Of a stretch of 64,000 nucleotides of DNA, positions 3,301-58,100 are shown piece after piece. Positions within the stretch are counted from its first letter, which is position 1; the number at the start of each line of letters is the position of its first letter. Source of the DNA: Sphaerolaimus hirsutus (Eukaryota > Nematoda > Chromadorea > Monhysterida > Sphaerolaimidae); assembly GCA_964036195.1 (NCBI GenBank), contig OZ038454.1:28258315-28322314 (forward strand), in the 5' to 3' direction. Position numbers and translations under genes: made by a program. A model generated the notes under the pieces. That model made no database searches. It had not been told where the DNA came from and worked only from the letters and a program-made list of their open reading frames with translations.

Positions 3301-6300
3301 GCGGAGGTTTGTGACGTATTTAGATGTTTTCTAGAAATGCACATTTAAGCATATCGATGATATATTGTACAAAACATATCTACGCTTGCTTACTTTTAAT
3401 TCCAATGTTTATTTCATCAAATTTTGAATTCTAAGCACTCTGCCATTCACGTGGTATAGAAATCGTTCATCCTATTTTGAAACTTGAAAATTTGCCTGTT
3501 TTTCACATTGTTCCACTGAATTTGACATCATTTTCCAATAACAACTGTATACCGTATATCCTCGATTAAGTCCTCCGCCTCGAATAACTCCCACCTCTCG
3601 AATAACTCCCCCCTGTTAGCTGACTGAGAAAAAAATAACTCCCCCTCTTTAATGGGTGACAAAGACATCCATGTATGAAAGACGTTTTTATGTATGTTTT
3701 CTTTATAAATACATGTATTTTTTGCAGGTAATGTTCACTAGTATTGATTTTATCACATGAATTATTAAAATTCGACCTTATTCATACAATATATTGATCA
3801 TGGATGTAACCTCATATTCTGATGTAAAAAAAACTCCCCCCTCGAATAACTCCACCCCCTCGAATAAGTTCTCCCTCAAAAAGCTCTGACGAAAAAATAA
3901 CTCCCCTGGGGACTTATTCGAGGATATACGGTAAGCTTAAGCTCACATTGGACAAACAAGTTCACTAACAGCAAGTTGACAGTGTGATCAAACACCACAG
4001 CTTTGCCTTCTCCCAGCTTCACCCACAGTTTACGGTCATCTTGAATTGACCTGTCTGGCATGACCGAACTTGGCTGGGGACCGCCCCAGTCTAAAGACCA
4101 GTTACCGTATTTATTCTAATAGAAGAATCGTGTAAATTAATTACATTTGATCACATTTTGTTCTCACTGTTGGGGTGTTGTCGGGGTTATTTTTTCTAAA
4201 ACGGAAAGATAGATATTAGCTGAGCGATTGGGTGTTCAGGCGATAGTATACTCGGCGGACCGCAAAGTATGCGCCCAAAATTATTTATGTCTTGGTCGAT
4301 AACGCGCGAGCTGGATACTTATGTTTGCACTTTCACAAAAAGAAAAATATTTTTGAAAAAAGAAAGGCGGAGTCGCGTACAAACGAGGAATGTTTTTTCC
4401 CAAAATGTTTTTTTCATTTTTTTTTGCTGGAATTATTTTTATGTGATTAATGATGACGTCATGATGGACTGTTTCCTTCGGAAAAATGCATAGCATGCGG
4501 TCCGCCGAGTATACCTAAAAATTGTTTTGTTCCTGGACAGATAGGTAGCTGACCAATTTTGGAAAACGAACCCCCGGAAAACGCCAGATGTCAACCACAA
4601 GCACCAAACCCAGCTGCCACCCGCTTCTAAGCCTGCTCATAGCAATTGGGGGCTTTTCCTGCAGCGCTGCGTACAGCTCAGCCATGCTCGGGTTGTAGCG
4701 CAGAATGCTGGCAATGTGTCGTCAGTAATGGTGTAAAAAGCGTGACGACTATGGCGCCAAGCGCCAAAAGTGCCATGGTGCTTTTCCGACCACCAGCGCC
4801 AATGGCGCCAGAGCAAAATGGCGCCAAGCGCCACTGAAAATATCAAAGGCATCGCACCATCTCCTTGTCCACAACTAGAATACCGTATTTGCTTGAATAA
4901 TCTCCCCTGTTAGACGAGTGTGGAAAAATAATTTCCCCTTGAACAATTCCCCCTTGAGGATGAAGTTGTTTGTGCAGTTTGAACAAAAATGGCATATTTT
5001 TTGTAAATAAAGCATATTTAGTGAAATGACTAGATAGACATTTTTTTTGAAAATCTTCACAAGATAATAATTTCTCCCCTTGAATACCCCCCCCCCCCTC
5101 GAATATTTCCCCAAAAAAAGTCTGACGATATAATAGTTCCCCAGGGGAATTATTCGAGAAAATACGCTATATGCTGTGCCGGAATCTTCTTAACTGGCCA
5201 TTTGCCAGCCATTCAATTCATCGCAAAAGCTACAGAATATTAAAAAATGCAAAAAAAAACTTGACCATGGCGAGCGTGTCGAACGCACCTAGTCAAATGA
5301 TTGGGCCATGAATGGCCAGTGTAAGCTTGAATTGACCCACTTTTGATGAGTCGAGTCAGCTGAGCCAAGTTGTAGAATGGTGGGTCACTCGCCTGCCAAT
5401 ATTATAAACAATATCATTAATATTTATTGTATATGGTAGCAGTGAGGGTAGGGGTTGGTTTTTGTCATGGTTGTGCACACATTTGTGCATTTTTATTGAG
5501 TTAGCGAAATGTCCTGGTATCATTCAGTGCACAAAAATATGCACTTCGAAAATGCGCACTGCGCTGTGCATAAGTGAGAAGTCATGACAAAACGTTTGCC
5601 ATGACAAAAACTCACCCAATGTCCAAAACAAAATTGACGCCATGAAGAAAAACTCCCACTATTGCGGTATTTAGATATCGATTAGTTGAAAACCCTGTCA
5701 ATTCATGGGTTGATATGTCTACGCGTTCCTGTGTACCGTTTTTAAGCGAATAATTCCACCGGGGAATAATTTTTTCGTCCTATTTTTTGAGGGGGGGGTA
5801 AACGAAGGGGGATTTATTATTTCATCAAAATTTTCAAGCACGTTTCTATCAACTCATTTCATGAAATATGCTTTAAGAACATAGCATGCCATCTTTGGTC
5901 GAATTGTACCGAACAAATTTATCAGTTGTTTGTTTGTTTGTTTGTAATTTGTCGAGACTGAATTTGTGGTTTCACCTTTTATTTATCGTTATGGTGTAAC
6001 TCCACCTTCAATATGACTCACAGGTCTGACGATTTGCATCAGGAGGAGGCTGGCATAGATGGCAAAAATGAACACTGACATGAGCGACACGGGCACACTA
6101 AACCGCCTGGAGCCACTCCCGAACCCTGTAAAATGCCCTGGAAAATGTAAAATGTCATGCAAAGTGTCTAAAGCCATGGAAAATGCCTTGCAAAATGACA
6201 ATTTTCCTTTATTTTTAACTGGTCATTTGGCACTTTGTGTGACATTTGCCATTTTGCAACTCATTTTACAGGGTTTGGGAATGTGGTACCTGTTGAGGTG

Positions 6301-31910: not shown

Positions 31911-31912
31911 GG

Positions 31913-32098
31913 TGGCAGTCCCAAGCCCTGTAAAGTGTAAAGTAAAGTGTCGAATGTAAAGTCAAATGTAAAGTAAACTGTCAATAGTCACGCAAAGTTC
32001 AGTAATAAAATCTTTTCTTTTTTGTTTTGATTGACACTTTACTTTGCATTTGACACTTTACTTTACACTTTACAGGGCTTGGGATGAGACTGCCCCCA
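31913..32098. mobile_element. Introner-family MITE, tandem copy 2
   Basis: Starts TGGCAGTCCCAAGCCCTG two bases (GG) after copy 1 and ends GACTGCCCCCA then GG. The interior has AAAGTGTCAAATG words. Confidence 0.8.
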
Positions 32099-32261
32099 GG
32101 TTTGATAAGTGATAATACTACTTGGATTTACAGGATTTGTCAAGCCATTCATGCGTAGACTCGGCGGACACCACACTTAGTGTGGGAGCCTACCCCTGCC
32201 CACAACCCATATGAATAATGAACGGAAAATTGTGTGGAGTCAAAAATTCATAGTGGTCAAA

Positions 32262-32937: not shown

Positions 32938-32989
32938 ATAAAGTTGAAATTTAAGTTTTTATCCATTAGATTATAGCGCGATTCTCCAC

Positions 32990-33345: not shown

Positions 33346-33395
33346 TTCTCCACATACTTGAAATTGCAGAATCTTAACCGCCGTAAATTTGATGG

Positions 33396-34885: not shown

Positions 34886-34909
34886 GCTGATATGCTTTCC
34901 ATTTATCAA

Positions 34910-35153: not shown

Positions 35154-35473
35154 ATGTACGTTTGCCACTTAGGTTTGTATTATAAAAAGCATTTTTACAA
35201 CGTGTCCACACGTATAATGGTAAAAAATTGTCGAAAATACCTTTTTTAAGGCAGAAATGGACTACAACACGTCTACTATGGTCATTCGATTTCCATGAAA
35301 TAGAACAAACGAAAAAGGGATGATTCCGATGGAAAAATCTGTCATCTTTATGTCCTAAATATTTGCATAGTTTTTATCTTAAAATGGCCACTTAAAAAAA
35401 CAACTTATTTTAAACGCCACAAGCCAACTTCCGTCCATTTGAAAAAAACAAGTGATAAATACATCGCAAAAAA
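35154..35473. other. FAM193 3' flank (copy 1)
   Basis: A/T-rich, probably the FAM193 3' UTR on the minus strand. No AATAAA was recognised in this orientation. Confidence 0.3.
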
Positions 35474-35695
35474 TCACTGCCTATCGGAACCGAAACCGCG
35501 CAAATCCCTCAAGACACCCAGGTTCAATTTGACTTTCTGCCGATCCGCCCTCAATCTGGTTTCCATTATAAATTGCTTGAAAAGTTCCACTTCCCTTTCG
35601 TCTTCGTCCATTTCTTCGAAAGCGCGATTACTGGGCGCCAATAAAATGTCCGCTTTGTGCATATTGTTGCATTGGCGGAGAAGCACCGATGTCGC
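35474..35695 (-). CDS. Assembly duplicate of the last FAM193 exon
   Basis: Same bases as 42954-43175, inside the 7,280-bp contig overlap. It should not be annotated as a separate gene, gene fragment or pseudogene. Confidence 0.9.
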   Translation of the reverse strand, partial: ATSVLLRQCNNMHKADILLAPSNRAFEEMDEDEREVELFKQFIMETRLRADRQKVKLNLGVLRDLRGFGSDRQ

Positions 35696-35742
35696 CTGGG
35701 TTTAGGGGGACTTTTGAATGGGGTATGTCGAAAGTGGCTATC

Positions 35743-36032
35743 CAGCACCTTGCAAAGTCAAATGTCAAGTAGCGATCAAAAAAGAAAATATTCCATTACA
35801 GAACTTTTGACATTTGTATGGATGATGGCACGTATTTCTTTTATGAACACTTTTGTGCATGCAATTTAACAATTTTGTATAACATTTTACATTTAAATTT
35901 GACACTTTACAGGGTGCGGGACTGCCCGCAGATGTTGTTTGATTGTCATCCGGGTACCACTCCCTAATCCTGTAAAATGTCAAATGTCCAGTAAACAACT
36001 AAACCAAAATTTGACATTTTACAGGGTCTGGG
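35743..36032. mobile_element. Introner-related MITE variants (CCCTGTAAA family)
   Basis: TTTACAGGGTGCGGGACTGCC and ACCACTCCCTAATCCTGTAAA with AAATGTCAAATGTC interiors; two partial or nested copies. The ends are more diverged than at 31769-32098. Confidence 0.6.
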
Positions 36033-36630
36033 TGTGACACGCGGATGACAATGAATCCCCGAATTTTCTCTTGACAGCTTTTCACTTTTTCTTAAACATT
36101 TGGTTATGAGAATTCAACACTGCCCCATTCGCTTGAATGATAAACTGATGCTACTCTCATACGTGGTGGAAGTGTGGAAAGCCACGCGAGTACTCATCTG
36201 CCGAGTACGCGAGCCTTTGCCGGTACTCATCTAAACCCACTACTCATCTAGACCCGCCAGTCATCTGGTGCTATTCACTACTCAGCTACACTAACCTCCA
36301 AGTGGCACCAGTTAGGCATGGGGGATTAGTGGCAGCAGGTTTAGATAGTCAGAGAAGCAGATATAACTCAGCAGTTGTGGCCAAGACAAAGGCTTTTTGC
36401 CACACATGCAGTGTAAACGGATAACCACTGGATAGGGTTGGGAACCCGACCTGACCCGAACACGATAACCGCACACGTTTTGGAACCGAAACCCGATACC
36501 CGACATTTTGACATTAAAACCCGACCCCATACCCGACCTCAATACCCGTACCCATACCCGACCTCAATACCTGAACCCGATACCCGCAAAGTTTTTGGAA
36601 CCAATACCCGATACCCGACACGGAATTTTT

Positions 36631-36830
36631 NNNNNNNNNNNNNNNNNNNNNNNNNNNNNNNNNNNNNNNNNNNNNNNNNNNNNNNNNNNNNNNNNNNNNN
36701 NNNNNNNNNNNNNNNNNNNNNNNNNNNNNNNNNNNNNNNNNNNNNNNNNNNNNNNNNNNNNNNNNNNNNNNNNNNNNNNNNNNNNNNNNNNNNNNNNNNN
36801 NNNNNNNNNNNNNNNNNNNNNNNNNNNNNN
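36631..36830. other. Assembly gap, 200 N
   Basis: A round 200-N run is a scaffold placeholder, not a measured gap; the two flanking contigs overlap by 7,280 bp instead. Confidence 0.99.
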
Positions 36831-37234
36831 GAACACAACGTTTTTGATGCATTAAAAGTTCGGAATTTGCAATATTTCACGCAATTTACATGCGAGCCGA
36901 TCTTTTAACGCTTCATAAACTAAGTGTTCTTTAGATTTGGGTTTCAGCGTTTGTAGTTCAGCGTGCAAAAACGTTCGAACGCTGAACGCTAAATTTCAGT
37001 ATGCGGTGCGCTTATTTGAAAGCGTCCCCATGCCATTCAATTTGGAACTGCATTGTATCTATGACCACGGAATATTTCTCCATTATTCGGGAAATATATC
37101 GTATCGTATAGCGACCATTTTTTATACCGAATATCGAAAAAATTCTGACAAAAATCGAGTTTCAAAATATATCGATATCAGAAAGTCAGTTTAAACTCCC
37201 AACCCTACCCATCAGCACTTAACTTCAAACTTGA

Positions 37235-37417
<183 letters not shown>

Positions 37418-40400
37418 GCACTTTGGTGATGTAAAGTGTGAAATTTTGTTGCATTTGGGGGGCAGCGAATTGGGGACTAATGGGCCCACACACACTAGTT
37501 GACATCGCAAATTCGCGTCAACTCAGTGTCAATTGAATAATACAAGAAGTTTGTAAAAAGCATCGCACTTAACAGGAACAATGGAAATGAAGTGTCATGA
37601 TGTAAAATTAACTATGCTCTATCAGATAGATAAGTTGAAATCACAGTATCACTTAAATTCAGTTGACATTTAGTTGACACGAATTCAGTTGACATCCAGT
37701 GTGTGGGGGCCCAATGGCGTGTTTTTGAAACTTGAAAAGTGGCTCGCGTGTGACGATTTTGTAGTAAAGTTTCGACTTTTTTGTCAAGTTCCATTTTCTT
37801 TGCTCATTATTCATCTAAAAGTATTACAAAATGGACACATAATGCGAGCGAGCAAGGTCTCTGTCTTGTTTACTTGTACATTGTATGTTGCCATGTAAGT
37901 TGCAAGGGGGTGCCAAGCAAAAAGTCGAATTCATAAACACATGCAAAATGGGGTGTGTAAAATCATTTCTGTGCAATTGTGCAAAATTCTGGTAATCATT
38001 TTGTCTATTGAAGTATATGCAATAAACGAGCTTGCCGAGCACCCTTGAGCACATTTCAAAAAGGAAAATTAAACGATAACTTCTCGGTTTTCGTCTCGTC
38101 GTTGTGGATTTCTGCACCCGTTCCGTGTAACTTTTCAAATGTGCATAACTTTTTAAAGTTATGTTCACAATGTAAATAGGTTCCGCTTTATAACATCACA
38201 TTGTGGGATCGAATTGATTTTCATGTAATTTGTTGTCAACTTCGTGTGGCTGGTGGCACTCTAGGACCCTGTTAAAATGTCATACAAAATGTTTGCCATG
38301 TAAATATTAAAATAGATGACTTGCAATACTTTGCATGGTTTAGGTTAAGTTGCAAGTTTACTCTCATGGTTAATCACTCAAACTTTGGCTAGTTGCCAAT
38401 TTTTGTCACTAGTTCGCTTGCGGAATTGACAGCTGGATCTGATGTGAAATATCAATTGATCTCACTGTAGTCAATGAATTTTCATGGGTTAATCGATGAG
38501 CTGCATAAAAGAAAGTAATTTTTTAGTGTTTTGAACTATCTATTTTGTTGCTGAATGAATATTCCACAAAATGCATACGTACATACGCTGTTTCGGTGTT
38601 GTAATCAGTGATATAAAAACGCTTGGAAAAGATGATAAGTCCCTCTTACATTTGTTTCATTTGCCGTAAACGTGTGATATTTCCCATGGGCTCCAAAAAA
38701 TTTAAAAATAAGTCCGTTTTGAACACATGCTGATAAAATAGCTCATTGCGGTAAGCCCGAACTTAGAAAATTAGGGCCCTTCGTTAAAGGTTGGGGCAGA
38801 TTTTTTTTTGGGACACATCCTTTCCAATAGTTCTTTCCAACGTTCAACAATCATCGTTATATAGGTCCCACACACGCTAGTTGACGCCAAAATTAGCGTC
38901 AACTCAGAGTCAACTGGTCAAAAATTCAATTGACTCTGAGCCATTTACAATATGTATCCAAAAAATCCCCTTCTTTCATTCTACATCAATCGACTTCTCA
39001 ATCAACACAGGTAAAAAATTAAAAATAGTTATACTTAAAACAGTTGACTCTGAGTTGACTCAATCGACTTCTAAAAAGTAGCGTCAACACCCGTGTGGAG
39101 CGCCATAAACGCGTTGGGTGATTTCTGCATTAAAAACTCTACCCTCTTTTCGCCGAGTCCGAATAAAATAACTCCCCGTATGACTTCGGTAATTTGTTCG
39201 TCCCGGACCTTTTTTTTGAAAGGAACTGTTTTTACAGCTCGCAGCTGGTGGCAGTCCCAAGCCTTGTAAAGTGTCAAATGCAAAGTAAACTCAATTGTCA
39301 TGCAAAGTTCAGTAATAAAATCTTCTTTTTTGTTTTGATTGACACTACGTTGCATTTGACTCTACTTTACAGGGCTTGGGACTGCCCCCAGGTGGCAGTC
39401 CCAAGCCCTGTAAAGTGTAAAGTAAAGTGTCGAATGTAAAGTCAAATGTAAAGTAAACTGTCAATAGTCACGCAAAGTTCAGTAATAAAATCTTTTCTTT
39501 TTTGTTTTGATTGACACTTTACTTTGCATTTGACACTTTACTTTACACTTTACAGGGCTTGGGATGAGACTGCCCCCAGGTTTGATAAGTGATAATACTA
39601 CTTGGATTTACAGGATTTGTCAAGCCATTCATGCGTAGACTCGGCGGACACCACACTTAGTGTGGGAGCCTACCCCTGCCCACAACCCATATGAATAATG
39701 AACGGAAAATTGTGTGGAGTCAAAAATTCATAGTGGTCAAACGTATTTACGTTTACTCGAGTACCTCGTAAATACGCTTAAGTTTACTCTCGATCAAATA
39801 CTACCTTTTGAAAGTACGCGAGTGCAGAAAACGTAAATAAGAATAAAATTTGTGGTTTATAAAAAGCAAAAACCGCTCAAAATGGCAGCGGAAATGATGG
39901 AAGTTGCGATGGGTAGTGAAAGTGACGACTCTCACTTTTACATCTTCCTAGCTACAAAATCGAGACAAAATTTACTTTTACGTTTTACTCTGAATAAAAA
40001 TATTGTATTCACGTTTACTCACCTTTTACACCTAAAATTTTTTACTTTTAAGTTTTCTGTACTCCGGGCTGAGTACAAATAAAATACGTTGCGTTTACTT
40101 AGGACAAAGTTCTGTACATTCAACAACTCGCAAAAATACAGTTTTTCATCATATTTAGTAAATTAAATTAAGAAATTTGAGTTTACTGTGCCTACACACA
40201 CTAGTTTTCACCGTGACTTCGTGGGAAAACTGGATTTTTTCCAAATGCAAATTAATGAACACGGTTGAACGATTTTATTTAAATTGAATTTAAATTAATG
40301 AAAGTTAAACTTTGAAAATTTGAAAACTAAAACACATAGCATACAAAAAGAGTAGGCTGGAGGTCGCCATTTCAGTTTTCACATCGGTCACGGTGAAAAC

Positions 40401-42953
40401 TAGTGTGTGTAGGGCCAATAAAGTTGAAATTTAAGTTTTTATCCATTAGATTATAGCGCGATTCTCCACTAGGGTTCAAACGGGATTGACTTTTCGGGAT
40501 CGGGATTGGTTTTTTGAGATTTCGGGATCGGGATGGGGGTCTTGGGATAGAGATTTTGGCCAATGTTCTGGCATCCACAGTTGTTCATAAAAATCTCAAA
40601 ACATTGTTGGATGCCAGAAAAGTGGTATAAAATGGACGCTGGGGTTTTTTCATTCACATTTTTGCATGCAAAAACGTCATTTTTTCACTTTTTATGATTT
40701 CACTAATTTTTCCAGGATCGGGATCCAGGACTTGGGAGTTTCTCGGGATCGGGATTTCAAAATTTTCGGGATCGGGACTGCAAAATCCCGGAATTTACCG
40801 GGATCGGGATCCCGTTTGAACCCTATTCTCCACATACTTGAAATTGCAGAATCTTAACCGCCGTAAATTTGATGGGTATACTCGGCGTACGTGATACTCT
40901 GCCCTCGCACTGATTTATGTCTCGTGTTGGAAGTGTGCCAATGATTATTAAATCATGCGATTTCGGTAAATATATGAAAAAATTCATCGATGTGAATATG
41001 TTAATGAATAATATTATAACAACAATCAATTTTGTCATCTTTTTATGAAACTCGGACGCGTTAACCATCGTTGGCACACTTCCAGCGGGAACCACGCGTG
41101 CAGGGTGTAAAGTAACCGGAGTATACTGTGGCGTCCTAGACTCTAAATATTCTAGCTTAAAGATGCCGGGTACAATTTGTGGTGGGCATAAAATCGCTTA
41201 ATCCGACATCTTGTTCGGTCACTACGCCTCTGGTTAATTGTTGCCAGGAAAGGCGGGGCTTATTGAATTACTTCCCAGTGCAGTTGATATTTTCCTTATT
41301 CACACGAACACTTACGTTCCCCCCATGAACGCTTTCAAATAAATGCCGAAAAACGACGAAAGGCAGATTCATGTGCACCCAAATTCGGAGACGGTATACT
41401 CAGTATCCAAAAAACAACATAAGGAATATGCATTAAAAAATCTAGACACGAAGGAATAGCACTGTGGAAACGAGTGAGGGGTGAACCTATTTTTGTACGA
41501 TGAGGCTTGGTTGGTCCCACACACTAGTTGACAAGGACACCGATTGTCAATTGGTTCCCATCCCAATTCAAAGCTTGCCCTCGTGCAACAGTACGCATTA
41601 TTGTATTTAAATATACACATGTATGTATTTACAACCTTGTAAATATTTACATTACACATGGCCTTGTAAATACATTACACATACTGTAATATTCATTTAA
41701 ACACTTTAGATTCATTTTAGCTTCACTTGCAACACATTCCAAACACTTTGCATTTGAACGTGGTTCGTCTGGTCGCGAGCAAGCTTTGAATTGGGATGGA
41801 AACCAGTAGACATTTGATGTCGTTGTCGACTAGTGTGTGCAAGACCATAGTCTAGTCGAAATGATGGTTGGAAAATCGAGATGGCGGGTGGCGATGCTAC
41901 GGCACTTCATAATCTAATATCAAATTCATGGCGTTAATTTAGGGTGTGGTATATATTTGAAAGCTGGGCCTCCGGGATTTCCGCCAATTACCTTATTACC
42001 TCGAATTAACCCCCCCTCAAAATGGGCTGGGGAAATAATAACCCCCCCCCCCCCTTCGGAATGATGTACGTCATGTACATAACAAATACGTCATGTATGC
42101 AATGTGCATGATGTATATTACTGTTAATTTGCATTGCAGCTACACATAGACTAGTTTGTGTAGCTATCTATGTACGTTTTTATGTCCAAATATATCCTGT
42201 TTGGACACATTTATTACCTGTTTTGGGTATGCAAATGCCTACTATTTATTACGATCCTTACGAAAATTTCTGACGAAATAATAAAACCCCCCTCGAATAA
42301 ACCCTCCTCAAATTTTGCTGGCGAAATAATAAACCCCCATGGCGGTATTTCGAGGTAATACGGTAGCTGATATGCTTTCCATTTATCAATTGAGGCATCC
42401 AATTCTAAAAGTCGACAAGTCCAAAATATGATGATTTCGAGTTAGGCCCGGAAACGTCATCTGGGGCTACTTCCGCACATTTTTCATTTTTTTCCATAAA
42501 TTTTTTGACCTCACATACGATAGTGCAAATTTGACATTTTCAGGGAAAATGCAAAAATAATTTGGACAATAAGTCAACAAGTAAACTTAGTTTTGGGCTA
42601 AAAGTCGACAAGTTTTAGAATTACACGCCTCAAATGTACGTTTGCCACTTAGGTTTGTATTATAAAAAGCATTTTTACAACGTGTCCACACGTATAATGG
42701 TAAAAAATTGTCGAAAATACCTTTTTTAAGGCAGAAATGGACTACAACACGTCTACTATGGTCATTCGATTTCCATGAAATAGAACAAACGAAAAAGGGA
42801 TGATTCCGATGGAAAAATCTGTCATCTTTATGTCCTAAATATTTGCATAGTTTTTATCTTAAAATGGCCACTTAAAAAAACAACTTATTTTAAACGCCAC
42901 AAGCCAACTTCCGTCCATTTGAAAAAAACAAGTGATAAATACATCGCAAAAAA

Positions 42954-43175
42954 TCACTGCCTATCGGAACCGAAACCGCGCAAATCCCTCAAGACACCCA
43001 GGTTCAATTTGACTTTCTGCCGATCCGCCCTCAATCTGGTTTCCATTATAAATTGCTTGAAAAGTTCCACTTCCCTTTCGTCTTCGTCCATTTCTTCGAA
43101 AGCGCGATTACTGGGCGCCAATAAAATGTCCGCTTTGTGCATATTGTTGCATTGGCGGAGAAGCACCGATGTCGC
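42954..43175 (-). CDS. FAM193 terminal exon
   Basis: Acceptor AAACCCAG; SNRAFEEMDEDEREVELFKQ, then RADRQKVKLNLGVLRDL and TGA at 42954-42956. Acidic then amphipathic helix, the FAM193 C-terminal signature. Repeated at 35474-35695 by the assembly overlap. Confidence 0.88.
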   Translation of the reverse strand, partial: ATSVLLRQCNNMHKADILLAPSNRAFEEMDEDEREVELFKQFIMETRLRADRQKVKLNLGVLRDLRGFGSDRQ

Positions 43176-46100
43176 CTGGGTTTAGGGGGACTTTTGAATG
43201 GGGTATGTCGAAAGTGGCTATCCAGCACCTTGCAAAGTCAAATGTCAAGTAGCGATCAAAAAAGAAAATATTCCATTACAGAACTTTTGACATTTGTATG
43301 GATGATGGCACGTATTTCTTTTATGAACACTTTTGTGCATGCAATTTAACAATTTTGTATAACATTTTACATTTAAATTTGACACTTTACAGGGTGCGGG
43401 ACTGCCCGCAGATGTTGTTTGATTGTCATCCGGGTACCACTCCCTAATCCTGTAAAATGTCAAATGTCCAGTAAACAACTAAACCAAAATTTGACATTTT
43501 ACAGGGTCTGGGTGTGACACGCGGATGACAATGAATCCCCGAATTTTCTCTTGACAGCTTTTCACTTTTTCTTAAACATTTGGTTATGAGAATTCAACAC
43601 TGCCCCATTCGCTTGAATGATAAACTGATGCTACTCTCATACGTGGTGGAAGTGTGGAAAGCCACGCGAGTACTCATCTGCCGAGTACGCGAGCCTTTGC
43701 CGGTACTCATCTAAACCCACTACTCATCTAGACCCGCCAGTCATCTGGTGCTATTCACTACTCAGCTACACTAACCTCCAAGTGGCACCAGTTAGGCATG
43801 GGGGATTAGTGGCAGCAGGTTTAGATAGTCAGAGAAGCAGATATAACTCAGCAGTTGTGGCCAAGACAAAGGCTTTTTGCCACACATGCAGTGTAAACGG
43901 ATAACCACTGGATAGGGTTGGGAACCCGACCTGACCCGAACACGATAACCGCACACGTTTTGGAACCGAAACCCGATACCCGACATTTTGACATTAAAAC
44001 CCGACCCCATACCCGACCTCAATACCCGTACCCATACCCGACCTCAATACCTGAACCCGATACCCGCAAAGTTTTTGGAACCAATACCCGATACCCGACA
44101 CGGAATTTTTAGGGCCCGATATCTGAACCCAAAAATTTATAACTTCCCAACCCTACCACAGGATAATGTAAATACCCCAGCCGACAGCTAAACCCCTGTT
44201 CACCACGGTAGGCACCATTGAAACATTTTCAGAAAACGATTCATAACTTCGCTATACAGCATGGTATTTAGTCAAGTGGGGTATCCCCTTGTAGGGCAAT
44301 TCAAGCCCTACAAGGGGATACCCCACTTGGCCAAATACAATGCTGTATAGCAAAGTTATGAATTGTTTTCTGAAAATGTTTCAATGGTGCCTACCATGGT
44401 AAACAGGGGTTTATCATGTGATGTGCACTGTGCCAGCCAGTTAATATCAGCATGTCTTTTACGTGCATGTGTGCTGCCTGGGGGTTTCACATTACTCAGT
44501 GATAATGGGGGTTGGGTTATGTGGCCATTCACACAGCATGGATGGCAAAAACAAAAATAGGGTCAGTCTTTGTCATTGTGCTTGCAGCCCACACTGAATT
44601 CTATCTGCTGCCCACTGAATTCTATCTTCTATTCTTTTATCCAAACCTGCTGCCACCAATTCTATTTGATGCACAGCAACAAACGCATCTACATACACGC
44701 AGCTCATCTATAACCCCTCCAATTTAGGGGGTATTTGATGGGTGCAGATGTGTAGTCGAGGGATGTATCCAGGAATTTTGAGCAGGGGGAGGGTGGCAAA
44801 TGGTTCAGATGAGTAGCGTGTTTAGACAAGTAGCGGGTTTAGATGACTAGCGAGCACTACCCAATCATACTGCTAGTCAAATTGCAAGCATATGTGAGTA
44901 TAACTACACATGACAAGTTTGCCTTTCACTTGTGCTTAACAATTTTTTCCACTACATTTACCATACCACTTTCAATTTTTCATTTACTCACTCGTGGTTG
45001 ACAACTTTAGAGCATTACCATCCAGTAAATCACCCCAGTGCGAAAATATCCAAACTTACTACACCACAAATAATCGGGCTGCCCGAAAAACGTGTCGGGC
45101 TGATCAATTTTTTTAACCACACAACCAGAAAAAGCACCCATTTACCTGACTACTTTTGTTCGAGTCGTCAGCAACGACGTTTTTCCCTCTCGATTTAGCA
45201 CCGTTAGAATTTTGGTCGGCCATCGCTGCCTGCGTGCAGTGGTAAAGCGTTTTACTAATTTATGCTAATTTCCGCATCTAGATACATACATGTTTGCATG
45301 AAGAACGCGCCGTGTGACTAAAAAATTATAACAAAAAATAATGATGAACGAAAATGCCAATAACCTCTCGCCAATGTTGTTCACAAAATTTCTGGGCGGT
45401 AATGCATATTAAAATGAATCATATCAAAAAGTTTTAACCAAAATTTCACTTCAATTAACAGATACCGAAACTATCCATACTTGCATTTTATCATGAAAGC
45501 AGTGAAGAAAAGGGAATTTAAATCTGAGAAAACTAAAGTAAGCCGTTACAGCTAATTGGCTATAGTTCAGGGACGTATCCAGGATTTTTGAGCGGGGGGG
45601 GCTGCTTGTTTACGGAGGCCGGCGAGGGGGGGGGGCTCAGCCCCCCCCCCCCTAAAATTTTAGCTACATAGTGGCGGAATGGCGCCATGGCGCTGGCGCC
45701 ATTTGTAGGCGCCACGCCATGGCGCCATTGGCGTTGGCGCCAGCGCCATGGAACGCTGTATATGTATGTAAATATACATACAAAACAGCAAAAAGCACAA
45801 CATTGAGTGTATTTATAGCGATTTGCGACCACATGGAGCAAATCTGATGATAATACGCTTTGTGTGGTGAAGAATGCGCGCTTGCGCGCAAAATTTTTTA
45901 CGCTGACGATGAAAAAGTCGCATTTTCCGGTCACTTTCTGGTCTCGCCCCGGGAGGGGGGGGGGCTGCAGCCCCCCCCCCCGCCCCCCCCCCTGGATACG
46001 GCCCTGCTATAGTTGCTAGGATACGCGCACACATGGAAATAAGTAAATACTTGTGCAGTGTATTCTGATAATTTATTTAGACGTTTCCCCCAACATTAAT

Positions 46101-49100
46101 TTTCTACCCAACATTTTACTGTAAATAATTTAAACACTTACAATTATTTCCGAGAAAATTTTCCGGTACTGTAGAGAATTTCATCGAGTTGAATATTGCC
46201 CATATCGGACCATATGTGGACTTGTCGACTTCTTGCCCAATTTTTTTTTGCATTTTTCCCAAAAAATGTCAAAATTGGCACTATGCCATATGGGCATGTG
46301 AGGTCAAAAATTTATGGAAAACCATGAAAAATGTGCAGACGTAGCCCCAGATGAACTCTGCGTCCGGGCCTAACTCTAAATTTTCATATTTTGGACTTGT
46401 CGACTGTTAGAATTGGACGCCTCAATTTACAAGTAAGCATAAAAGGAAGAAAAACTCGCCTTTTCATGGGAAGCTTTCTTAGTTTTTGCCCTGTGCCGCT
46501 TTGACGTCTTGGCTGCACTCGAACCTGCATCATAATATGTACATAAATTTTACAAAATACATTATACTCGGCGGACCGCAAAGTATGCGCCCAAAATTAC
46601 GTAAATACGTCCCCAATAAAAGAGTGGGTAAAAACGTTGGCAAAAAATAGAAGGGCGCCCTTCTATTAGAAGAAATACGGTAACCTTGTTTCCTGCCTTC
46701 TATGAATGCAAGAAGCTCGTCCAATGAGCGATCGCCCAGCGACGCGGCAGCACCTTTTGCATTGTCTGCTTTTCCTGAATTTGCCTCGGCTATTTCACCC
46801 TGCAAGATTGAATAACGAATTGAACTCATTGTCGATTAGGGAAGACCGGAGTTTTTTTAAACCGTTTTTATAAACGTTGTTTTTTCAACGCAAGCATCGA
46901 AACCGTTTTTTTTTAAACAGCAAGCGAAATTGTAAATCAGCATAAAAGAGAATTTTTGGCAGAAATAACCACTTAAATTTAATGTTATCCCTATGGCTCT
47001 ACAGCCATTCTATGGCTATACATAACATCACAAAGTGCTGCCACTTGTCTAATATATCTGTATTCAAATTTTCGAAATACCGCGTCAAAAATCAAACACT
47101 TTTGCACTAACCAATACAAGGTATGCTCCCAATCATATACAATACTGAACCCACTCAAAACCGATCCAACATACCCGTCTTTTCAACTTCATTCTCAATC
47201 TATCCCTGGCCCTCTCAACACTCGCGTGCCGGCCGCAATTGTGCACATCGCAAAAACAACATGGCGCCTCTTTTGCCGGCCGCTCGGCGGTCTCGTTCGA
47301 GTCCGCTTCCCGGTTTACCGGTTCTTCCGGTTCCGGTTCCCCCGCGGGTTGTGTCGGTTTTTTTGGTGATGCTGGCATCGTGTTGTTGGTGGGAGTGCCT
47401 GGGGTCGGGAGCAGGCTTTTGGAGGGTTTTTTTGGAAATTTTTGGAAATGGGATTTGATGTCGAGTATCAGACATAGAAACCAGGGACGAATCCAGGATT
47501 TTTGAGCGGGGGGCTGCTTGTTTACAGAGGCCGGAGAACGGGGGAGGGGCTCAGCCATAGAAGTTTTTGGGGTTAGCATTTTGAGGGGGGGGGGGGGGTC
47601 CGACCCCTGGCACGTGTTAATAACTCGGGAACCGCTTGGCGAAAAATGTTGAAATTTGGATATATTATGGTTTCAGGTCGGGGCTCTCTCAGATTTCGAC
47701 GAAATTTTTATACGACCCCTGAGACCGGAGATAGGGGGGGGTCTATAAAAACACTGTCATTTGCGTTTTTTTTGGGTGTCGCCGAGAACATGCAAACTTT
47801 GAACATCAATATCTCGGTCATTTGTGAACCGATTTTAGTCATTAAAATGTTAGAATGATCACAAATGTTCGGAGAGTTCATTTCTGAGGTCAAATCGGAG
47901 ATACACATTTGTTTATATATCAATTTAGCCAGATTTCGAAATGCAAAATTTCCGCAAAAGTTTGCTTTTTGAACACGCTATCCTATTCTCCTGATCGAGA
48001 GAAACTCAATGAAACAAAAATGAGATCGATATCTCTCTCCGATCAAGAGTTATGGCGCTTCAAACTTTTCCCTCCCATCCACATAAATAACCACATGCAT
48101 GCAACTTCAAAACTCCATATCTCGGCCATTTCTGTGCCTATTTGCACCAATGAACACTTAAAATAATCAGAATGACATGGAGATATCGTTTTATTCACAG
48201 TCTATTTGTATGCATTCTCATAATGACAATTTTATTCAAGAGTTCACATTAATTTCTTGTATGGGAAATCTGCTGAAATATACGGATAATCTGGTACTAA
48301 AAACTGTATCTCCATGTCATTCTGATCATTTTAAGTGTTCATTGGTGCAAATAGGCACAGAAATGGCCGAGATATGGAGTTTTGAAGTTGCATGCATGTG
48401 CTTATTTTTTGTGGATGGGAGGGAAAAGTTTGAAGCACCATAACTTTTGATCGGAAAAAGATATCGATCTCAGTTTTGTTTCATTGAGTTTCTCTCAATC
48501 AGGAAAATAGGATAGCATGTTCAAAAAGCAAACTTTTGCGGAAATTTTGCATTTCGAAATCGGGCTAAATTGATATATAAACAAATGTGTATCTCCGATT
48601 TGACCTCAGAAATGAACTCTCCGAACATTTGTGATCATTCTAACATTTTAATGACTAAAATCGGTTCACAAATGACCGAGATATTGATGTTCAAATGACA
48701 GTGTTTTTATAGACCCCCCCCCCCTATCTCCGGTCTGGGGGGTCGTAGAAAAATTTCGTAGAAATCAGAGAGAGCCCCGACCTGAAACCATAATACATCC
48801 AAATTTCAACATTTTTCGCCAAGCGGTTCCCGAGTTATTAACACGTGCCAGGGGTAGGACCCCCCCCCCTTCAAAGTGCTAACCCCAAAAACTTCTATGG
48901 GCTCAGCCCCCCCCCTAAAATTTTACCTACAGAGGGGTGGAATGGCGCCATGGCGCTGGCACCATTAGTAGGCGCCACGCCGTGGCGCCATTGGCGTTGG
49001 CGCCAGCACCATGGAACGCTGTTTATGTATGTAAATATAGATACAAATACAGCAAAAAACACCGTTAAGTATTTTTATAACGATTTGCGGCCACAGGGAG

Positions 49101-52100
49101 CAAATCTGATGAAAATACCTGAAGTCTGGTGAAAAATGCGCGCATGCGCGCAAAATTTTTTACATTGACGTTGAAAAAGTCGCATTTTCCGGTCACTTTC
49201 TGGTCTCACCCCGAGAAGGGGTGGCTGCAGCCCCCCCCCGCCCCCCCCTGGATACGGCCCTGATAGAAACATACGATGTCGACAAAAATATTTTTTTCAT
49301 AGACAAAAGTGTCATACTTCACGGAAAACGTTCAGATTCCTGAGAAAAAGTAGTGATTTATACATACTGCTTGAGTGTACGCACATGCTATGTTTCAGAT
49401 AATTTGTGCTTGTCCCTCGTATTTAAATCATAGGGTTGTCCCGGCCGCGAATTAGCTGCGACAACAGAAATTAAAAAACCCAGTAACATACAAATTATGA
49501 AAAACACGGCATGTCTGGATTCTCAAGTAGAAGTAGCATGTAAACTTCACTGCATTTTCTCACAAATACGGGACTTTTTCCTTGAAATACTTGTCTTGAA
49601 TCTTAAAAAATACTTGTCGTCACAAATTTTCCAGTAAAAACGACCTCACAAAACTCACGATCAGCGCCAGCCACTTTTTTATTCACCAATCCCAACTTGG
49701 AAGCGTCGTTATTAGTCGTCACAGCCGCTGCAGTTCTGGCCAACTCAACAAGCATTTTCTTCAGCGACTCTTGCCCGCCCTTTCCCTCCGTGGCGCCGGC
49801 GCCAGGATCTTGGCGCTTGGCGCCACAATCGTTTACCTTGGCGCCGTCAGAGTGCCATGCAAAAGTGCTCTCAACCGTCACCGAGCCGTCGGCTTTTCGT
49901 GACGGGTCGATTTGTGACGAAGCGTTCGCGCTGTAGTGACGGCCAGTGGAGCTCTGCGAGTGTTTTGGGGGGAATTTTTTTAATGGACGATTTTTAAAGG
50001 GCGGCAGTGAACAAAAATTCACGAGTGAGACAAAAAATTCAGTGAAATGCAACTTTTAGTATGAATTTGCAAGATGTTTAGTAAAATTTTTGTTAGCAAG
50101 CAAGCACTTTTTGATCTTGGAAGTGATGCCATTGTTGTATTTTTGGTTGTAGCCATGTGAATCCGAAAAACGAAAATGTATATCATCGCTTTCACCAGCA
50201 AATCGGACAAGAAATAACATTTTTTAGATAAAATAAAAATCACACCAAAAAAACGACCTTAGCCTCGGCTCTAATCTCCACCATAACGCCCTGGTCTTTC
50301 AATAAACCCGGCTTCAAACTTTCGATCGCTTTCATAGTGTTTTCTTTCAACATCTGTAACACGCCGGCTGGCAATTCATCGGAAATATTTGGCGCATCAT
50401 TGTCTTCACGCGGCTCGTCACGATTTTGTGACGCGGCGATAGTTGGTTGCGTTTGGACATTGTCGCTCTTGGATTTTTCTTTGGCATCAGATTGGCTTAG
50501 TTGCTTTTTGGAGCGTTTTATATCCTCAGCTGTGCGCGAGATTTGAGCGGTTAAATAAAATGTTTAATTGGTGAAAAAAAGGTATAAATGACCCCATTGA
50601 ACACACCCAATTTTAAAAATAGACACGTGTCTGGAGTAGGTAGGCCACTGCTGATTTTCTCCTTGTTCCATTGCCTGCAAAATTAAGTGAAAATTGCGAT
50701 TTTTCGGCCGAACATTGTCACGATATCTAACTTTGGGAAGACATAAACACACTTAATATGGATATACAAAATGTAACATTCAACCTCACTCGACGTACAC
50801 TTTGTTGATAATAAATAATCACAAGGCTCCCAGCATATTTTGAAGCATCCCATTTGGGAGTCCCCAATGAGGACCCCTGGGGCAGTCCCGCACCCTGTAA
50901 AGTGTAAATTCAAGTGCCAAATGTCACGTAAACTGTCAATTGAAATGAGGAAAAGATTTGATTACTAAACTTTACACACTTTGCACGACATTTGACAAAT
51001 TTGTCTGACATTTTACATGACATTTGACATTACATTTAAGATACTGCGGAACTGCCACCTGGACAAACACAGCCTCCTCAACTTCAAAGCAAATAACCGA
51101 CAAAAATAAATAGTAAAGACAAAAAAGCACCTCTCATCCCGCTGAGACTCGTGTTGGGAGATACGTCTGGCTGGCGGCAGCAACAGTTCAGTGACGGCGC
51201 GCAGCGTTTCGTCAATCGGGCGCCATTCCCACTCCCCAGAAGCCAGTTTAGCATAGCTCGCGGCACAGTCGGCGTCCGCCTGGAAGTGTGCATCAATGTT
51301 GTTTTGTTGACGATATTTTGACGGTGGTGCACTGATACGCACATCTGCCCGTTACGCACATTTGCCCGTTTTTTCACTTGACACTTTTCCAAGTGATTTT
51401 CAGATATGAGTGAAGTGAAAAAAAGTTCACTAATGTCATTGCGCAACTTTTTTCACTTTACTCATATCTGAAAATCATTTGAAAAAGTGTCAAGTGAAAA
51501 AAACGGGCAAACGTGCGTAACGGGCAGATGTGCGTATCAGGCCTGCCCCATTTTGACATCTTGACAAATTTTGAGATTTTAGATGACAATCCGGCACTCT
51601 AAGAATGGTAAAATCACGTGAAATTGGCATACAAATTTGTCAACTGTCATGAAATATGTCAAAAGTTCAGTAGTAAAAATCTTTCATTTTTATTGACATT
51701 CGAATTTAAACTTCACAAGGTGTGGGACTTTCCCTAAGGAAATTCCCAGTCAGGAGGTTTGAAAATATTTAATGGGCACTTTCAACAGAACAATTGAGGC
51801 GTTTGGTTCCGTAACTAGATAAGCGCCAAAGTGAAAAAAATTGACTCAAGTGCATATCTGATATATACATAGTCCGGCTGAAAAGTCCCCGGGCAGTGCT
51901 CGCCATTCGCGCTAGGGGTAAGCTACGGTCATAAAATTTCGACAGGTTAAGATATCAGGTGTTTTGAGTTTTCACCCAAAATTTCACCCCTCTAGCTCCA
52001 CCCACTGTGGAACTGTGGGGGTTACAATTTCGGTCATTTTGTACTGATGTACAAATGGTGCTCTAGCTCAATGCTGCTTTAAGTTGTGATCATGAAACTT

Positions 52101-55100
52101 TGGCTAGTGTGAGCCACCAGTGTTGGCAATGTGCTGATAGTATTCAACACTTTCATCAACATCTTTGCGATTAAGGTAAAATTGATATGCGGTTCAGGGT
52201 GATGTGCAAGAAACGTGGGAACTGTGATGGATGTTTTTGGTGATCATCTGAGATCATGTTGTAAGGCAGTGATTTTAATGTTGTTTTGAAATGTGCAGTA
52301 AGTTAGTTATGTGTTTAAAATTTCCTTATGTTTCATTACTAATCTGTAGTGAACACATTACCAGTGTTCAACAGCAGTGTGCATGCAAAATGCATCCTGT
52401 TTTAACCACTTTTTGAGAAGGAGGGGCAGAATGATGAATTTGGAAGTGAGAGTAGTGACAGTAATGACAATATTAACTAGGCTGATGATATCATAGCTAA
52501 TGTTGGTTAGTGCTGGCACATTGCCAACACTGGCGGCTTACATTAGCCAAAGTTTCATGATTACAACTTAAAGCAGCATTGAGCTAGAGCACAATTTGTA
52601 CATCAGTATAAAATGACCGAAATTGTAACCCCCACAGTTCCGCAGTGGGTGGAGCTAGAGGGGTGAAATTTTGGGTGAAAACTCAAAACACCTGATATCT
52701 TAACCTGTCAAAATTTTATGACCGTAGCTTAACCCTAGCGCGAATGGCGAGCACTGCCCGGGGACTTTTCAGCCGGACCATGTATATACATATTTTTCTT
52801 CAAAATAAAATAAAAATTACGTAAATATCTCATACCGTTCCCGAGATACAGAGACACCGATTTTTGAAAAAAAATGTAAATTTTCATCCGAAACTCGATA
52901 TCTCCACCATCACAATGGTGAATTTTCACTCGAAACTCGAGAACTCCATAAATATCATTAATATTTTTCACTCGAAACACGATATCTCCACTGAAAAAAC
53001 TAACCATCCGAAACTCGTTATAAATTTATAGGGAAATGGCTAAATCCCCATACAAAAATGAAGTTTGCATCCGAAACTCGTTATAAAATTTTGTTACTTA
53101 AATTTGTTGCCATAATGACGGTCAAATGGACCTAACTCTAGCCATATTTGCCGGCCAGAGGATTGTAAATATGGAAAATGTTGAGAAATTCGTTGGCTTT
53201 TCAAAAAGTATTGGGCAAGGGTTGGCACTCAAAGCGTGCCCGCTCAGGCCACTCTCAAATTTTCAAATGCAATTTTCACAAAACTGAAAAACATGGAGTT
53301 ATTGAGTTTCGGAACCAAACTCCTCAATTAAGACTTTGCTTGAAATGTGTCACAATACCTAAAGTCAAATCACATTGAAATTCAAATGTGAACTCACGCA
53401 AGTGCTAGCGTCATTGCCGCGCACACTTTCCTCCAAAATGCCGGTAAAATAGGGCGGCGGCGATGGTGATTGGCTGCAGATACTGTGATTTGTCTCTTCT
53501 GAAGTGGAGTAGGCGGAGCGCTGACGACCGGCGCGCTGAGAACAAAGTTCACTGTTGCTTGAATGGGCCCCCACACACTGGATGTCAACTGAATTCGTGT
53601 CAACTAAATGTCAACTGAATTCGTGTCAACTAAATGTCAACTGAATTTAAGTGATACAGTGATTTCAACTTATCTATCTGATAGAGCATAGTTAATTTTA
53701 CATCATGACACTTCATTTTCATTGTTCCTGTTAATTGTGATGCTTTTTACAAACTTCTTGTTTTATTCAATTGACACTGAGTTGACGCGAATTTGCGATG
53801 TCAACTAGTGTGTGTGAGCCCAATGAAAAGAAAATGACTTTGGAAAATATTTTATATGGGATGGTTGGAACGATATTTTCTATCTATTGAATGAATTTTT
53901 AATATTGATTGTCGAATTTTTAGGACCAATATAAGTTTTCTATATCAAATACCGAAACAAAAAAATTCGAAAAACATTACAAGTGAAGAAAATGATTACA
54001 AAATTTTAAAAAACCCGCCCACCAGGGGCCAGATTGTTTTCTCCCTACAGATTTGTAGGGTAGGGCGTACACCCAATAGATTTTTTTAAAGTTCAGCCGC
54101 TTTGACGCACATGCACCGAGAGCAAGGCGGTTCGTAAAATACACGAGACTATCCCTTAAGGTCGCCGATATTGCAATATGACGTATATCGCTTCGATTTT
54201 GGTCCGGAAATCACGATTTCGTCATTTCTTGGCCGTCTGCCAATTCGTTTTTATTTTATTTTGTCGGGCGGGTTACTCGCATAAGTCGCGCTTTTGTACG
54301 CTTGTGCATGCATTTCTTTCTTGTCGCTGTCCTCATGGTTTTGGTTGTAGGCAGTGAACACTAAAGAAGTGACCACCTGACTACACAAAAGCGCGACTTA
54401 TGCGAGTAACCCGCCCGACAAAATAAAATAAAAACGAATTGGCAGACGGCCAAGAAATGACGAATTCGTGATTTCCGGACCAAAATCGAAGCGATATACG
54501 TCATATTGCAATATCGGCGACCTTAAGGGATAGTTTCGTGTATTTTACGAACCGCCTTGCTCTCGGTGCATGTGCGTCGAAGAGGCTGAACTTTAAAAAA
54601 ATCTATCGGGTGTACGCCCTACCCTACAAATCTGTAGGGAGAATTAAATCTGGCCCCGGGTGCCAATTCCGCAAGTGAGCAAGAGACCAGTGGTAGTATT
54701 CCAGGGGTGAGAAAAAGTAGATATGTTACTGAAAGAACTTGTAATTCATAATTTTACTTGTCACTTGGCTCACGCTTACCTTATCACTTGTCCGCACGGC
54801 GGAATTGGCGCCGGAAAATTTCCCCTTTTATTCTACACCAATCCCCAAAAACGCACCATGCACCAGTCATCATCAGTGGCGCCAGCGCCATCCAAATCCG
54901 AACTAGACTTCTCGCCCACCCGAAAATCTTCAGGCAAATTGATAAACACCCTTCCAAGGGAGTCTTTCTGCATGCCCGCGGTGACTCTGTGCCACAAGGC
55001 GTCGCCTACTAAAGGGCCATTGTTTTTCGAGTCGATTTGGGGTGCCATTTGCCAGACATCTGGATGGGGGGGGGGTGAGTTGAATATTTATGATGCATAT

Positions 55101-58100
55101 ATCATTTAGTCTATTTATGTATTGATGGATGTGACATGACATGTCAGAAAGGACAAATGTTTCTTTCAAAATACTGGATAAAAAAAATTGAAATTGACCA
55201 ACAGTGGGCAAATAACAATTTAAATAAAATTAGAAAGCTTGATTTTACATAAATAATACTAATATATCAGTATCACGCCTTATCATTTTAATTCTAACAC
55301 GCAGAAATAGAAGTTTGACGCTATATAAATTATTACCTTCATCATCATCGCAGGTGTCGTCTGAGCCGGAAGTATCTCCCGCGCGCACATCACACGCTAA
55401 TTGTCTGCAAAAAGTTTTTTTATAGAAAGTCCAATTCTAAAAGTCGACAAGTCCACAAATTTCTGTAATCGAGTTAGGCGAAGAATAATTTTATAGGAGT
55501 GGTTCCGCCCATTTTTGTCCATTTTCCAGACAATTTGTCACCTCACTTGCCCCTTTCTCAGTGTCGGATTTAAACACTTCTGGAATAATTGCAAAACGTT
55601 TGGGAAGAAGTCGATAACTCCACTCTGACCCGGGCTTAAAGTTGATAAGTCCATATTGCGGCGATTTTTGATGGGGAAACTGTGAGAAATGTGTTCGTCC
55701 ACGTAGAACGCCGACTTCTAAAAATCGATGATAGGTCAAGAGGTTTTGTCCAGAGCCCGGCAAGAAGTCTACTTTTGTTTACTTTAAAGTTTTAGGCAAT
55801 TTGAAGTTTCAATTTCAAATCCAACCAACTCTAGAGCGACATCATTATTATCATCGCTCGCAGATGCAGAGTGATCGGCCACGAAACTCCTGTCCCACGC
55901 TCTGCGATGTGATTTTAGTGTGAAATAAATTTCGTTACATTGTGCCAACACACATTACTTGTCAACTGAAATTTCGAAAACTCATAAATGAGCTTTGAAT
56001 TCAATATTTCCGTTGAAAACTAGTGTGTGTAAAGGCACTGTCTCTTAATATTATATAGATTTCATTTAAATGTTCGATTTTTTTTCGGCTAAGGTAACTT
56101 CATTTTTTTCTTCTAAAAACTTCTAACGACACTTCTGAAAAATCAGTTTCCGAAACTAATCCATGAAGCCACATCACGCGTTGATGAAATTCAAAATAAA
56201 TAGCTGAAAATGTAGCCAATGTTTTTTCAATGATGGTTAAAAAAGTAATTTTGAATGAGAAGTGAAATTCGAACTTTTAGACAAATCTAGCAGAATCAGA
56301 ACTCGTCAAAACAGGCAAACAAAAACAAACTGCAGATCAGCTGCATCCAAATCCGCACCGGTCATGGAAACTGGCGGCTCTCCCGCAGCGCCGCTCATAA
56401 AATCCTCAAACTGAAAAAGTGAAATCAACATAACTAGCTTTGAACTGATTAGCTCTGAAAAAAACCTACCGTGTAAAATGTAAAACAACCGGTAAAAAAA
56501 GAAAATTGGACATTTTACACAATCTGGCATTGGACATCTTTCAACCGGAAAGCCCCCCCCCCCCCTGAAAAAAAGAAAGCCCCGCCCACCTGATCCGCAC
56601 TAGACACTCTCTGGCCAGTGGCCAAACCGCCCGCAGTCTGGCTCACATTGACAACGCCCCCATTGTGACAAGTAGCTCCCCCTGGGGGCACTCACAGACC
56701 CTGTAAATTGCCCTGCAAAATGTAAACTGTCTTGCAAATCGTTTGAAGTCATGGAAAATGCCCTGGAAAATGGCAAACATACGTGTGCCATTTTCCAGGG
56801 CATTTTACATCACTTTAGACACTTTACATGTCATTTAACATTTTACAGGACATTTTACAGGGTCTGGGAGTGGCACCAGTTTTCTCATCAACCATTCCAA
56901 GCGAAGCCCAGTCCTTCTCGTGGAGTAAACCACAGGTTATTATGTGACTGATCTCACATTGGTCGCAAGGGCAGTATTTTAGTGAGCACACTGCACAGGG
57001 GCGCATTGGGTGCGTGGGTGGTGCCCCGCTTTTGTCATCTGGGATTTGGGGGTGGATCTGGATGTTTTCCACGGGTATAATGTGCAATGGATGGTTGGGG
57101 GTGATCCCCAGGGTGAAAATTTTTCCTTTTTACGATGTTTACACATAGTGATGGAAAAGCGCCATGGCGCTGGCGCCAAAGCAAAAAGCGCCATAGCGCT
57201 TTTGGCGCTTGGCGCCATTTTGCTCTGGCGCCATTGGCGCTGGGCTTTGAAAAGCGCCATGGCGCTTTTAGCGCTTGGCGCCGAAAGCCTGGCGCTTTTT
57301 CCATCACTATTTACACATTAGTTACCCCACAAACAATCCAGCTATTTATCCATCTATCACGAGGTGAATTATTGTTGGCTACTACCCCCCCCCCCCCAAT
57401 CGCCCAGCTACCAAATATTTATGTAGACCAAGTTTTGAGCGCAATTGCATAAATTCTGAACGTTTTCGCCCAGTTACACCTTCCAAATCGTAATTCTTAT
57501 AACTTCTTGCCTCCTCCCACGCAATCTAAAGATTTTAAGTATTTATCGCCACCTAATTTTTTTTGTTCTTTACAACTAGAAATAGCCTACGCTGAACCGC
57601 CCAAAACTACCCCCTTTTTGTCAAAATATCAATTTAGCCAAAAAAAATCACAATGGCATTTATTCTCAAGAGAAACACATACCTGCGGCGGCATTTTCCC
57701 CACAATGGAGACTAGAATCTGACTGTCTGTCACCAGTTTTGGTCAGGTAAGCTCGCAGTGTTCGCTTGAATGCTGCCATGTCTTCTGCACTGCGGCTGCG
57801 TGTGAATGTAAAAATGTGTGCTCACATTGACATTTTAAAAATTCCAAATTGCTTTATATCTTGGTTCGGAAACACAAACACAACGTTTCAAAATTTAGAT
57901 TTCACGGATGAAGATATATCGTAGTAACCTTGTAAAACCACATCAGGTACTAATTCCGTACATGGAGAAGTGAAAAACCATACGAAACGTGTGAAGTAAA
58001 AAGAGAAGGTAGAAGTGAAGTGAAATGAGAAGTAAAAGGTTTACATCGCTTTTAACCTTTTCAATACTTCAATACTGATTTCAATTTCACTGCTAAAATA

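Follow-up and report, generated by a model that had tools for sequence, protein, structure and literature searches.

Intron gain in animals is an old open question, and introners have been reported in few animals. In the survey of Gozashti 2022 (PMC9860276) they occur in two animal groups only, as far as the available part of that paper goes, and Harbinger is not mentioned in its main text. The introners described there form families of similar introns with a similarity reaching to near the splice borders. Many of them show target-site duplications (TSD) and terminal inverted repeats (TIR), whereby one splice site stems from the TSD and the other is borne by the element. They are enriched in genes and in GC-rich sequence. 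In their example from Chrysochromulina the element itself brings the 5' site, while the 3' site is recruited. Introners which combine TSD and TIR and obtain one of their splice sites from the TSD are already known from the accessible text of this survey. The element described here resembles them in these respects, but differs from those in that text by being a near-complete palindrome between CWG triplets that takes its polarity from two base pairs.

A similar shape is found in Hypoxylaceae fungi, whose symmetrical sister introns and stwintrons are proliferating inverted-repeat introns with a central palindrome, predicted hairpins and new gene positions (PMC8469720, available part). The example given there is 93 nt long with arms ~73.5% alike, copies number in the tens, and flanking duplications are absent according to that part, on which ground DNA transposition was excluded for them. 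In contrast, the present family shows 192 nt, a near-perfect consensus, thousands of ends and CWG triplets. In the dinoflagellate Amoebophrya, introner elements also exhibit inverted and direct repeats at their borders, predicted hairpins and a transposon-like spread (PMC7789003, excerpted text). Most of them, however, fall among the non-canonical introns, and their inverted repeats span 8-20 nt, whereas GT...CAG prevails in our samples and the arms measure 96 nt.

On the side of the transposons, NuwaI elements (PHIS superfamily, relatives of PIF/Harbinger) are found in animals, generate CWG duplications and have terminal repeats of 12-61 bp usually starting with GGG, as well as a DDE transposase with a Myb/SANT partner (PMC4482050, accessible part). 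The CWG triplets are shared by the present element, one end of which reads GGGG. The elements on which the description of NuwaI is based contain ORFs for a transposase and for Myb/SANT, without mention of an introner role in that part, whereas our element has 192 nt and one GTGC end. Finally, recent introns with GA or GG donors in the copepod Eurytemora affinis have an obligate AG before the donor (PMC5714493, available part), which a CAG triplet would supply here as well. They differ in that no element family is described for them in this part of the paper and in their near-ordinary acceptors.

Among the matches listed in searches of the introner literature (with Harbinger, since 2022, with palindrome or hairpin; mostly non-subscription papers) there was no description of the present combination. 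What is new here is an introner consensus that reads as a 192-nt palindrome broken at two base pairs which would write the donor. A large family of one element with such a simple structure makes the steps from transposon to intron testable base by base, since arm divergence ranks the copies by age. It bears on the changes that make a MITE spliceable, on the splicing of long hairpins and on the fate of insertions with the wrong triplet.

The intron between two FAM193 exons

The window, i.e. the whole stretch of 64,000 nt that was analysed (C6:28258315-28322314), contains exons A-D of a FAM193 gene on the minus strand. Their borders were set by comparing two copies of the locus together with a phase check. 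Exon A (57683..57779) runs from the first in-frame ATG, is followed by GTATGT and ends in phase 1. Exon B (56877..57038) encodes ...DDKSGAPPTHP...MVDEKTG, and exon C (56590..56681) encodes GATCHNGGVVNVSQ...SSADQ before GTGGGC. Exon D (56330..56410, as far as it was read) begins at 56410 in phase 0 with the border TTTTTCAG^TTTGAGGAT... (^ marks splice borders). All introns between these exons are GT-AG and the phases join throughout. The initial annotation had given the same extent for exon C but had extended exon B to 57125; differences between the locus copies are dense past ~57045, and the AG in front of 57038 joins the phases.

Exons B and C are separated by an intron of 195 nt (56682..56876, minus strand) which reads ...GAGAAAACTG^GTGCCACTCCCA...GTGAGTGCCCCCAG^GGGGAGCTAC and is bounded by CTG^GTGCCACTCCCA upstream and GTGAGTGCCCCCAG^GGGGAGC downstream. 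It consists of a 192-nt element (56685..56876, minus strand), with the donor-type end GTGCCACTCCC at 56876 and the acceptor-type end ...GAGTGCCCC at 56685, and of one target-site triplet CAG (56682..56684, minus strand) that provides the AG acceptor. The upstream triplet CTG (56877..56879, minus strand) remains in exon B. With CTG at the left and CAG at the right, the duplication of this copy is inexact. End placement confirms that the intron is a single family member from end to end, as proposed initially, while the proposed geometry of an element plus one base of GG on each side gives way to an element plus one CWG triplet. Excision preserves the reading frame, in agreement with the earlier claim of phase 1 to phase 1, and retention leads to a stop in all three frames. 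As far as it can be read from the sequence, an intron of the form GT...CAG that keeps the frame and gives stops on retention is thereby confirmed.

The same layout is shared by a whole-intron copy in the second gene noted before (case 1, 183 nt, 6107..6289, minus strand, CAG^GTACCA...GGCTC+CAG). Both copies have the same orientation relative to transcription, as noted at first; since the consensus is otherwise palindromic, this is meaningful solely via two terminal base pairs.

We consider it highly likely that the intron is an introner, i.e. a non-autonomous DNA transposon in a coding exon that is excised by the spliceosome. MITEs are frequent in introns and relatives of the family are present between other FAM193 exons, as expected if an ordinary old intron had later been filled by a MITE reaching both splice sites by chance. 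Such a nested insertion would, however, leave remnants of the host intron on both sides, while the element match stops exactly at both splice sites with CWG triplets adjoining the exons. Moreover, this fit recurs at coding sites elsewhere that are unrelated, and there too the frame is restored. A filled old intron is therefore very improbable.

Copies of the FAM193 locus

The name FAM193 is backed by matches to the FAM193_C domain (PF15914) on the same strand (35519..35617, minus, and 42999-43097) and not by the exons flanking the intron, whose spliced B-C peptide matched 0 Pfam families. The second match lies inside a 7,480-bp direct duplication (window ~29351-44100) which doubles the FAM193_C exon and includes one 300-nt pair with 100% identity. 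This duplication may be an assembly artefact; the window contains 200 N. FAM193_C is also found at C6:28199253 and on contig C751. Parts of the locus recur at C6:28235049, C6:28199253 and C751:10684 and possibly represent unmerged haplotypes.

A second copy of the locus is located 80 kb off, with 97% identity over 241 nt. Comparison of the two gives 8 differences in exons A-D, and 7 are synonymous in the spliced frame (A 2/3, B 4/4, C 1/1, no differences in D), including 5/5 in the exons B and C that flank the intron. The introner shows 7 differences in 195 nt and no indels, and the 644-nt intron A-B shows 43 differences along with large indels. A genome search with the joined exons gave two copies, both filled, and no empty FAM193 site. 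That the gene copy is dead, the element unspliced and the frame match due to chance is scarcely credible: parts of the locus are indeed multi-copy in the assembly, but 7/8 exon differences are synonymous, every splice site is GT-AG and all phases join.

A genome-wide family bordered by CAG and CTG

The genome searched comprises 348 Mb on 762 contigs. The central 28-mer of the element has 1,052 occurrences at ≤2 mismatches and its reversed control 0. A chance match, called unlikely on the basis of two cases in the window, is therefore excluded. Exact donor ends on both strands amount to 3,092 (1,657 beside CAG, 1,435 beside CTG) and exact acceptor ends to 1,266 beside CAG and 870 beside CTG, with 0 in all controls; these are counts of ends and not of proven introns. 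The share of CAG is greater at acceptor than at donor ends (Fisher p 5e-5). According to 28 aligned genomic copies and the placement of ends, the mobile unit has ~192 nt with mostly CAG or CTG on either side.

For an end-blind sample the first 50 listed places of the 28-mer were taken, all of them exact and on contigs C1 and C2 (15 + 20 + 15 loci). Among the loci analysed as a whole, L012 and L022 were dropped as opposite-strand duplicates of L003 and L004, and L043, being the L016 locus, was counted once. Ends were placed in 46/50 copies, of which 42 have a donor and an acceptor end, 3 two donor-type ends and 1 another arrangement. CWG is present on both sides in 29/46, with an identical triplet in 23 of these 29. 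The triplets (left/right) are CAG/CAG in 13 copies, CTG/CTG in 10, CTG/CAG in 5, CAG/CTG in 1 and others in 17. Two near-duplicate pairs, L055/L056 and L059/L060, are included in these counts, and with lengths of 148-211 the position of the ends is uncertain in several of the 46 copies. A cousin of the element is found within the window at 31912..32100 (plus strand, GTGGCAGTCCC...GACTGCCCC, CAG on both sides). It adjoins another one at 31768 and is repeated 7,480 bp further on.

Coding context of the insertions

A codon model trained on 9 hand-chosen seed loci (W 75, six frames) assigned the same strand and frame to the left and right flank in 22/44 non-seed loci, with a chance expectation of ~1 in 6. 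At 60, 90 and 120 nt the agreement was 19, 22 and 16 of 44. On joined flanks it called 34/44 non-seed loci sense. The near-duplicates L002, L024, L060 and L056 as well as loci without placed ends were left aside in this test.

A refined model was fitted on the flanks of 53 of the loci tested, so its results are not fully independent. It scores 22/28 junctions as coding (score > zero) versus 18/138 windows at 1-1.6 kb distance. The best sense frame is equal left and right in 45/66 loci (offsets 45/11/10) versus a mean of 27.4 with shuffled partners (p 0.0002), and in 36/57 without the training loci (offsets 36/11/10, p 0.0004). L055, L056, L049, L060, L015, L002, L024 and L016 were omitted. The median GC content of the flanks is 0.637 versus 0.393 at 1-1.6 kb. 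Longest-ORF statistics across the junction turned out to be too noisy for distinguishing sense from antisense. Two codon models trained without supervision placed the majority of loci in antisense; they were discarded as lying on the wrong strand, because clear proteins are read in sense at several such loci.

The orientation of the copies was called with L055, L056, L060 and L015 set aside. Copies with an AG acceptor are 30 times sense, 3 times antisense and 8 times uncalled (n=41), those with a CTG acceptor 6, 3 and 5 times (n=14), and those with other right-hand triplets 4, 5 and 2 times (n=11). The single copy without GT is antisense. The contrast of AG- and CTG-acceptor copies (30:3 versus 6:3) is not significant (p 0.10).

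At the protein level, a Pfam domain at or above the cut-off spans the junction in 8 of 29 hand-chosen loci, namely Peptidase_M24 (L009), Cyclin_N (L037), 7tm_1 (L014), Srx (L035), Oxysterol_BP (L078), Ribosomal_S7 (L025), PD40 (L019, exactly at the cut-off) and Peptidase_M14 (L018, with ~26 extra residues). Solved proteins align through the junction for 5/5 chosen peptides. The alignments are gapless for relatives of cyclin-Y (84 residues over the junction, E 2.7e-40) and SPT16 (107 residues). The OSBP1 relative (E 2.6e-28) has two one-residue gaps, one of which adjoins the junction, the MRPS7 relative has one residue fewer near it and the SETD3 relative two extra residues adjoining it. Frame offsets and proteins across the junction agree in that removal of the element restores the frame in coding flanks.

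The suggestion of the initial annotation that the family has spread introns through this genome is thus supported by samples from beyond the window, with coding junctions, matching frames, mostly sense AG-acceptor copies and proteins crossing the junction. Taken together, the family very probably has created many new introns throughout the genome out of its own insertions.

Palindromic consensus and predicted folding

A consensus was built from 60 of 67 elements, i.e. those 175-200 nt long, with the copies turned donor first. It is 192 nt long and identical to its reverse complement at 188/192 positions; no pairs other than 2/191 and 4/189 are broken. These yield GTGC at one end versus GGGG at the other, the complement of which, CCCC, followed by CAG represents the acceptor. 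The arms are more alike within copies (identity 0.894) than between copies (0.856, permutation p 0.0005), so that insertion as a near-perfect palindrome with later divergence of the arms is probable for the copies.

The intron at 56682-56876 is predicted to fold into one hairpin (-105.4 kcal/mol, z -14.5) with the first 4 and the last 7 nt free. Predicted folds of 42 copies (omitting L055, L056, L049, L060 and lengths outside 150-215) have a median of -127.6, with pairing of nucleotides 1 and 2 in 17%. When the consensus is flanked by CAG at either end, nucleotides 2 and 4 are predicted to be unpaired with probabilities of 1.0 and 0.72, while 1 and 3 are paired. With both ends made alike, nucleotides 1-6 are all predicted to pair. 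Changes in two end base pairs may have made the element spliceable.

Directly observed are a match over the whole intron, a repeated family, CWG triplets, a restored frame and an orientation bias, whereas splicing in RNA, a transposase and the following order of events are inferred, as is an animal host, to which the gene content points. The element, mobilised by a transposase of the NuwaI type (PIF/Harbinger), would insert in a coding exon between CWG triplets that represent a 3-bp TSD. Its GTGCC end would then provide the GU donor and its CCCC end together with the CAG triplet the acceptor, so that splicing would take out the element plus one triplet and give back the original mRNA. The two mismatched pairs, at positions 2 and 4, would make the donor, set the direction and, as predicted, loosen the hairpin at its base.

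A spread of the family by RNA, e.g. by reverse splicing, is also expected to give an orientation bias and coding flanks. This route has been proposed for symmetrical introns of fungi without flanking duplications, and those of Hypoxylaceae are thought not to be DNA-transposed according to the available part of that report (PMC8469720). Here, CWG at both borders and the near-perfect inverted repeat point to DNA transposition instead, and some copies appear antisense. Spread by RNA is hence rated as quite remote for this family.

Copies at odds with canonical splicing

CTG/CTG copies (L014, L035, L042, L020, L052 and L064) lack the AG that is needed and cannot be spliced canonically. Nevertheless, three of them lie in sense within intact-looking coding sequence, namely L014 (7tm_1), L035 (Srx) and L042 (SETD3-like). 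A simple GT-AG model leaves such CTG-acceptor copies in intact-looking genes unexplained; they are either broken alleles or the host tolerates GT...TG. A younger age of CTG-acceptor copies was considered and is not supported, as their median arm divergence is 0.078 (n 12) versus 0.089 (n 20; p 0.70; L055, L056, L049, L060, L002 and L024 omitted) and the divergence from the consensus shows no difference either (p 0.67).

L034 and L069 seem to be reversed, as judged from translation only, and would need a GG donor; neither matched a Pfam family at the cut-off. The GG donors reported for Eurytemora affinis in the available part of that work (PMC5714493) would fit such reversed copies. L003 has identical arms, yet mixed triplets CTG/CAG. 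This weakens the view that mixed triplets always go back to later mutation, and they may arise at insertion.

A further-reaching reading combines these cases. A G-to-T exchange at one end (GGGG to GT..) would have enabled a perfectly palindromic MITE of the NuwaI type to produce introns on a large scale by two base pairs, which gave it a donor, a looser hairpin at the splice sites and a direction, and the host would in addition splice rule-breaking introns of the types GT...TG (CTG target) and GG...AG (reversed). As a whole we regard this as speculative and rather unlikely.

Relation to PIF/Harbinger transposons

The 5'-CWG-3' duplication typical for NuwaI is seen on both sides of the 29/46 end-blind copies given above, whereby it is read from filled sites. 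As to terminal repeats, one end of the introner is GGGG and the other GTGC, and owing to the palindromic structure the arms reach 96 nt. Mobilisation of the NuwaI type within PIF/Harbinger is suggested by the CWG triplet together with the GGGG terminus. According to the best reading the element is non-autonomous and NuwaI-like (PIF/Harbinger superfamily) with a putative transposase, the gene of which would carry GGGGCANTCCC or GTGCCANTCCC ends and CWG.

The genome contains at least 163 matches to DDE_Tnp_4 transposases. A common Harbinger family (L066, L082) is not supported as mobiliser, since the single end seen (GGCCCCGCGCAC or alike) differs. The same applies to a further Harbinger family (L083, L084), whose single end seen also differs from the introner. 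L083 and L084 are 99.8% identical over 3,967 nt, and in both the Harbinger-type transposase gene holds a cousin of the introner in an intron-like manner (L083:3878-4075 and L084:429-620; CTG^GTGGCAATCC...ATTGCCCC+CAG, phase 0).

Other features in the window

Three long inverted-repeat pairs are located at 47798-48695, 51862-52788 and 54020-54662. Their arms of 278-290 nt are 94-97% complementary, and they are other foldback elements. ORFs resembling RRM exons are found on the minus strand at 17405-19122 and 20251-20640, which may belong to a TIA-1-like RNA-binding protein.
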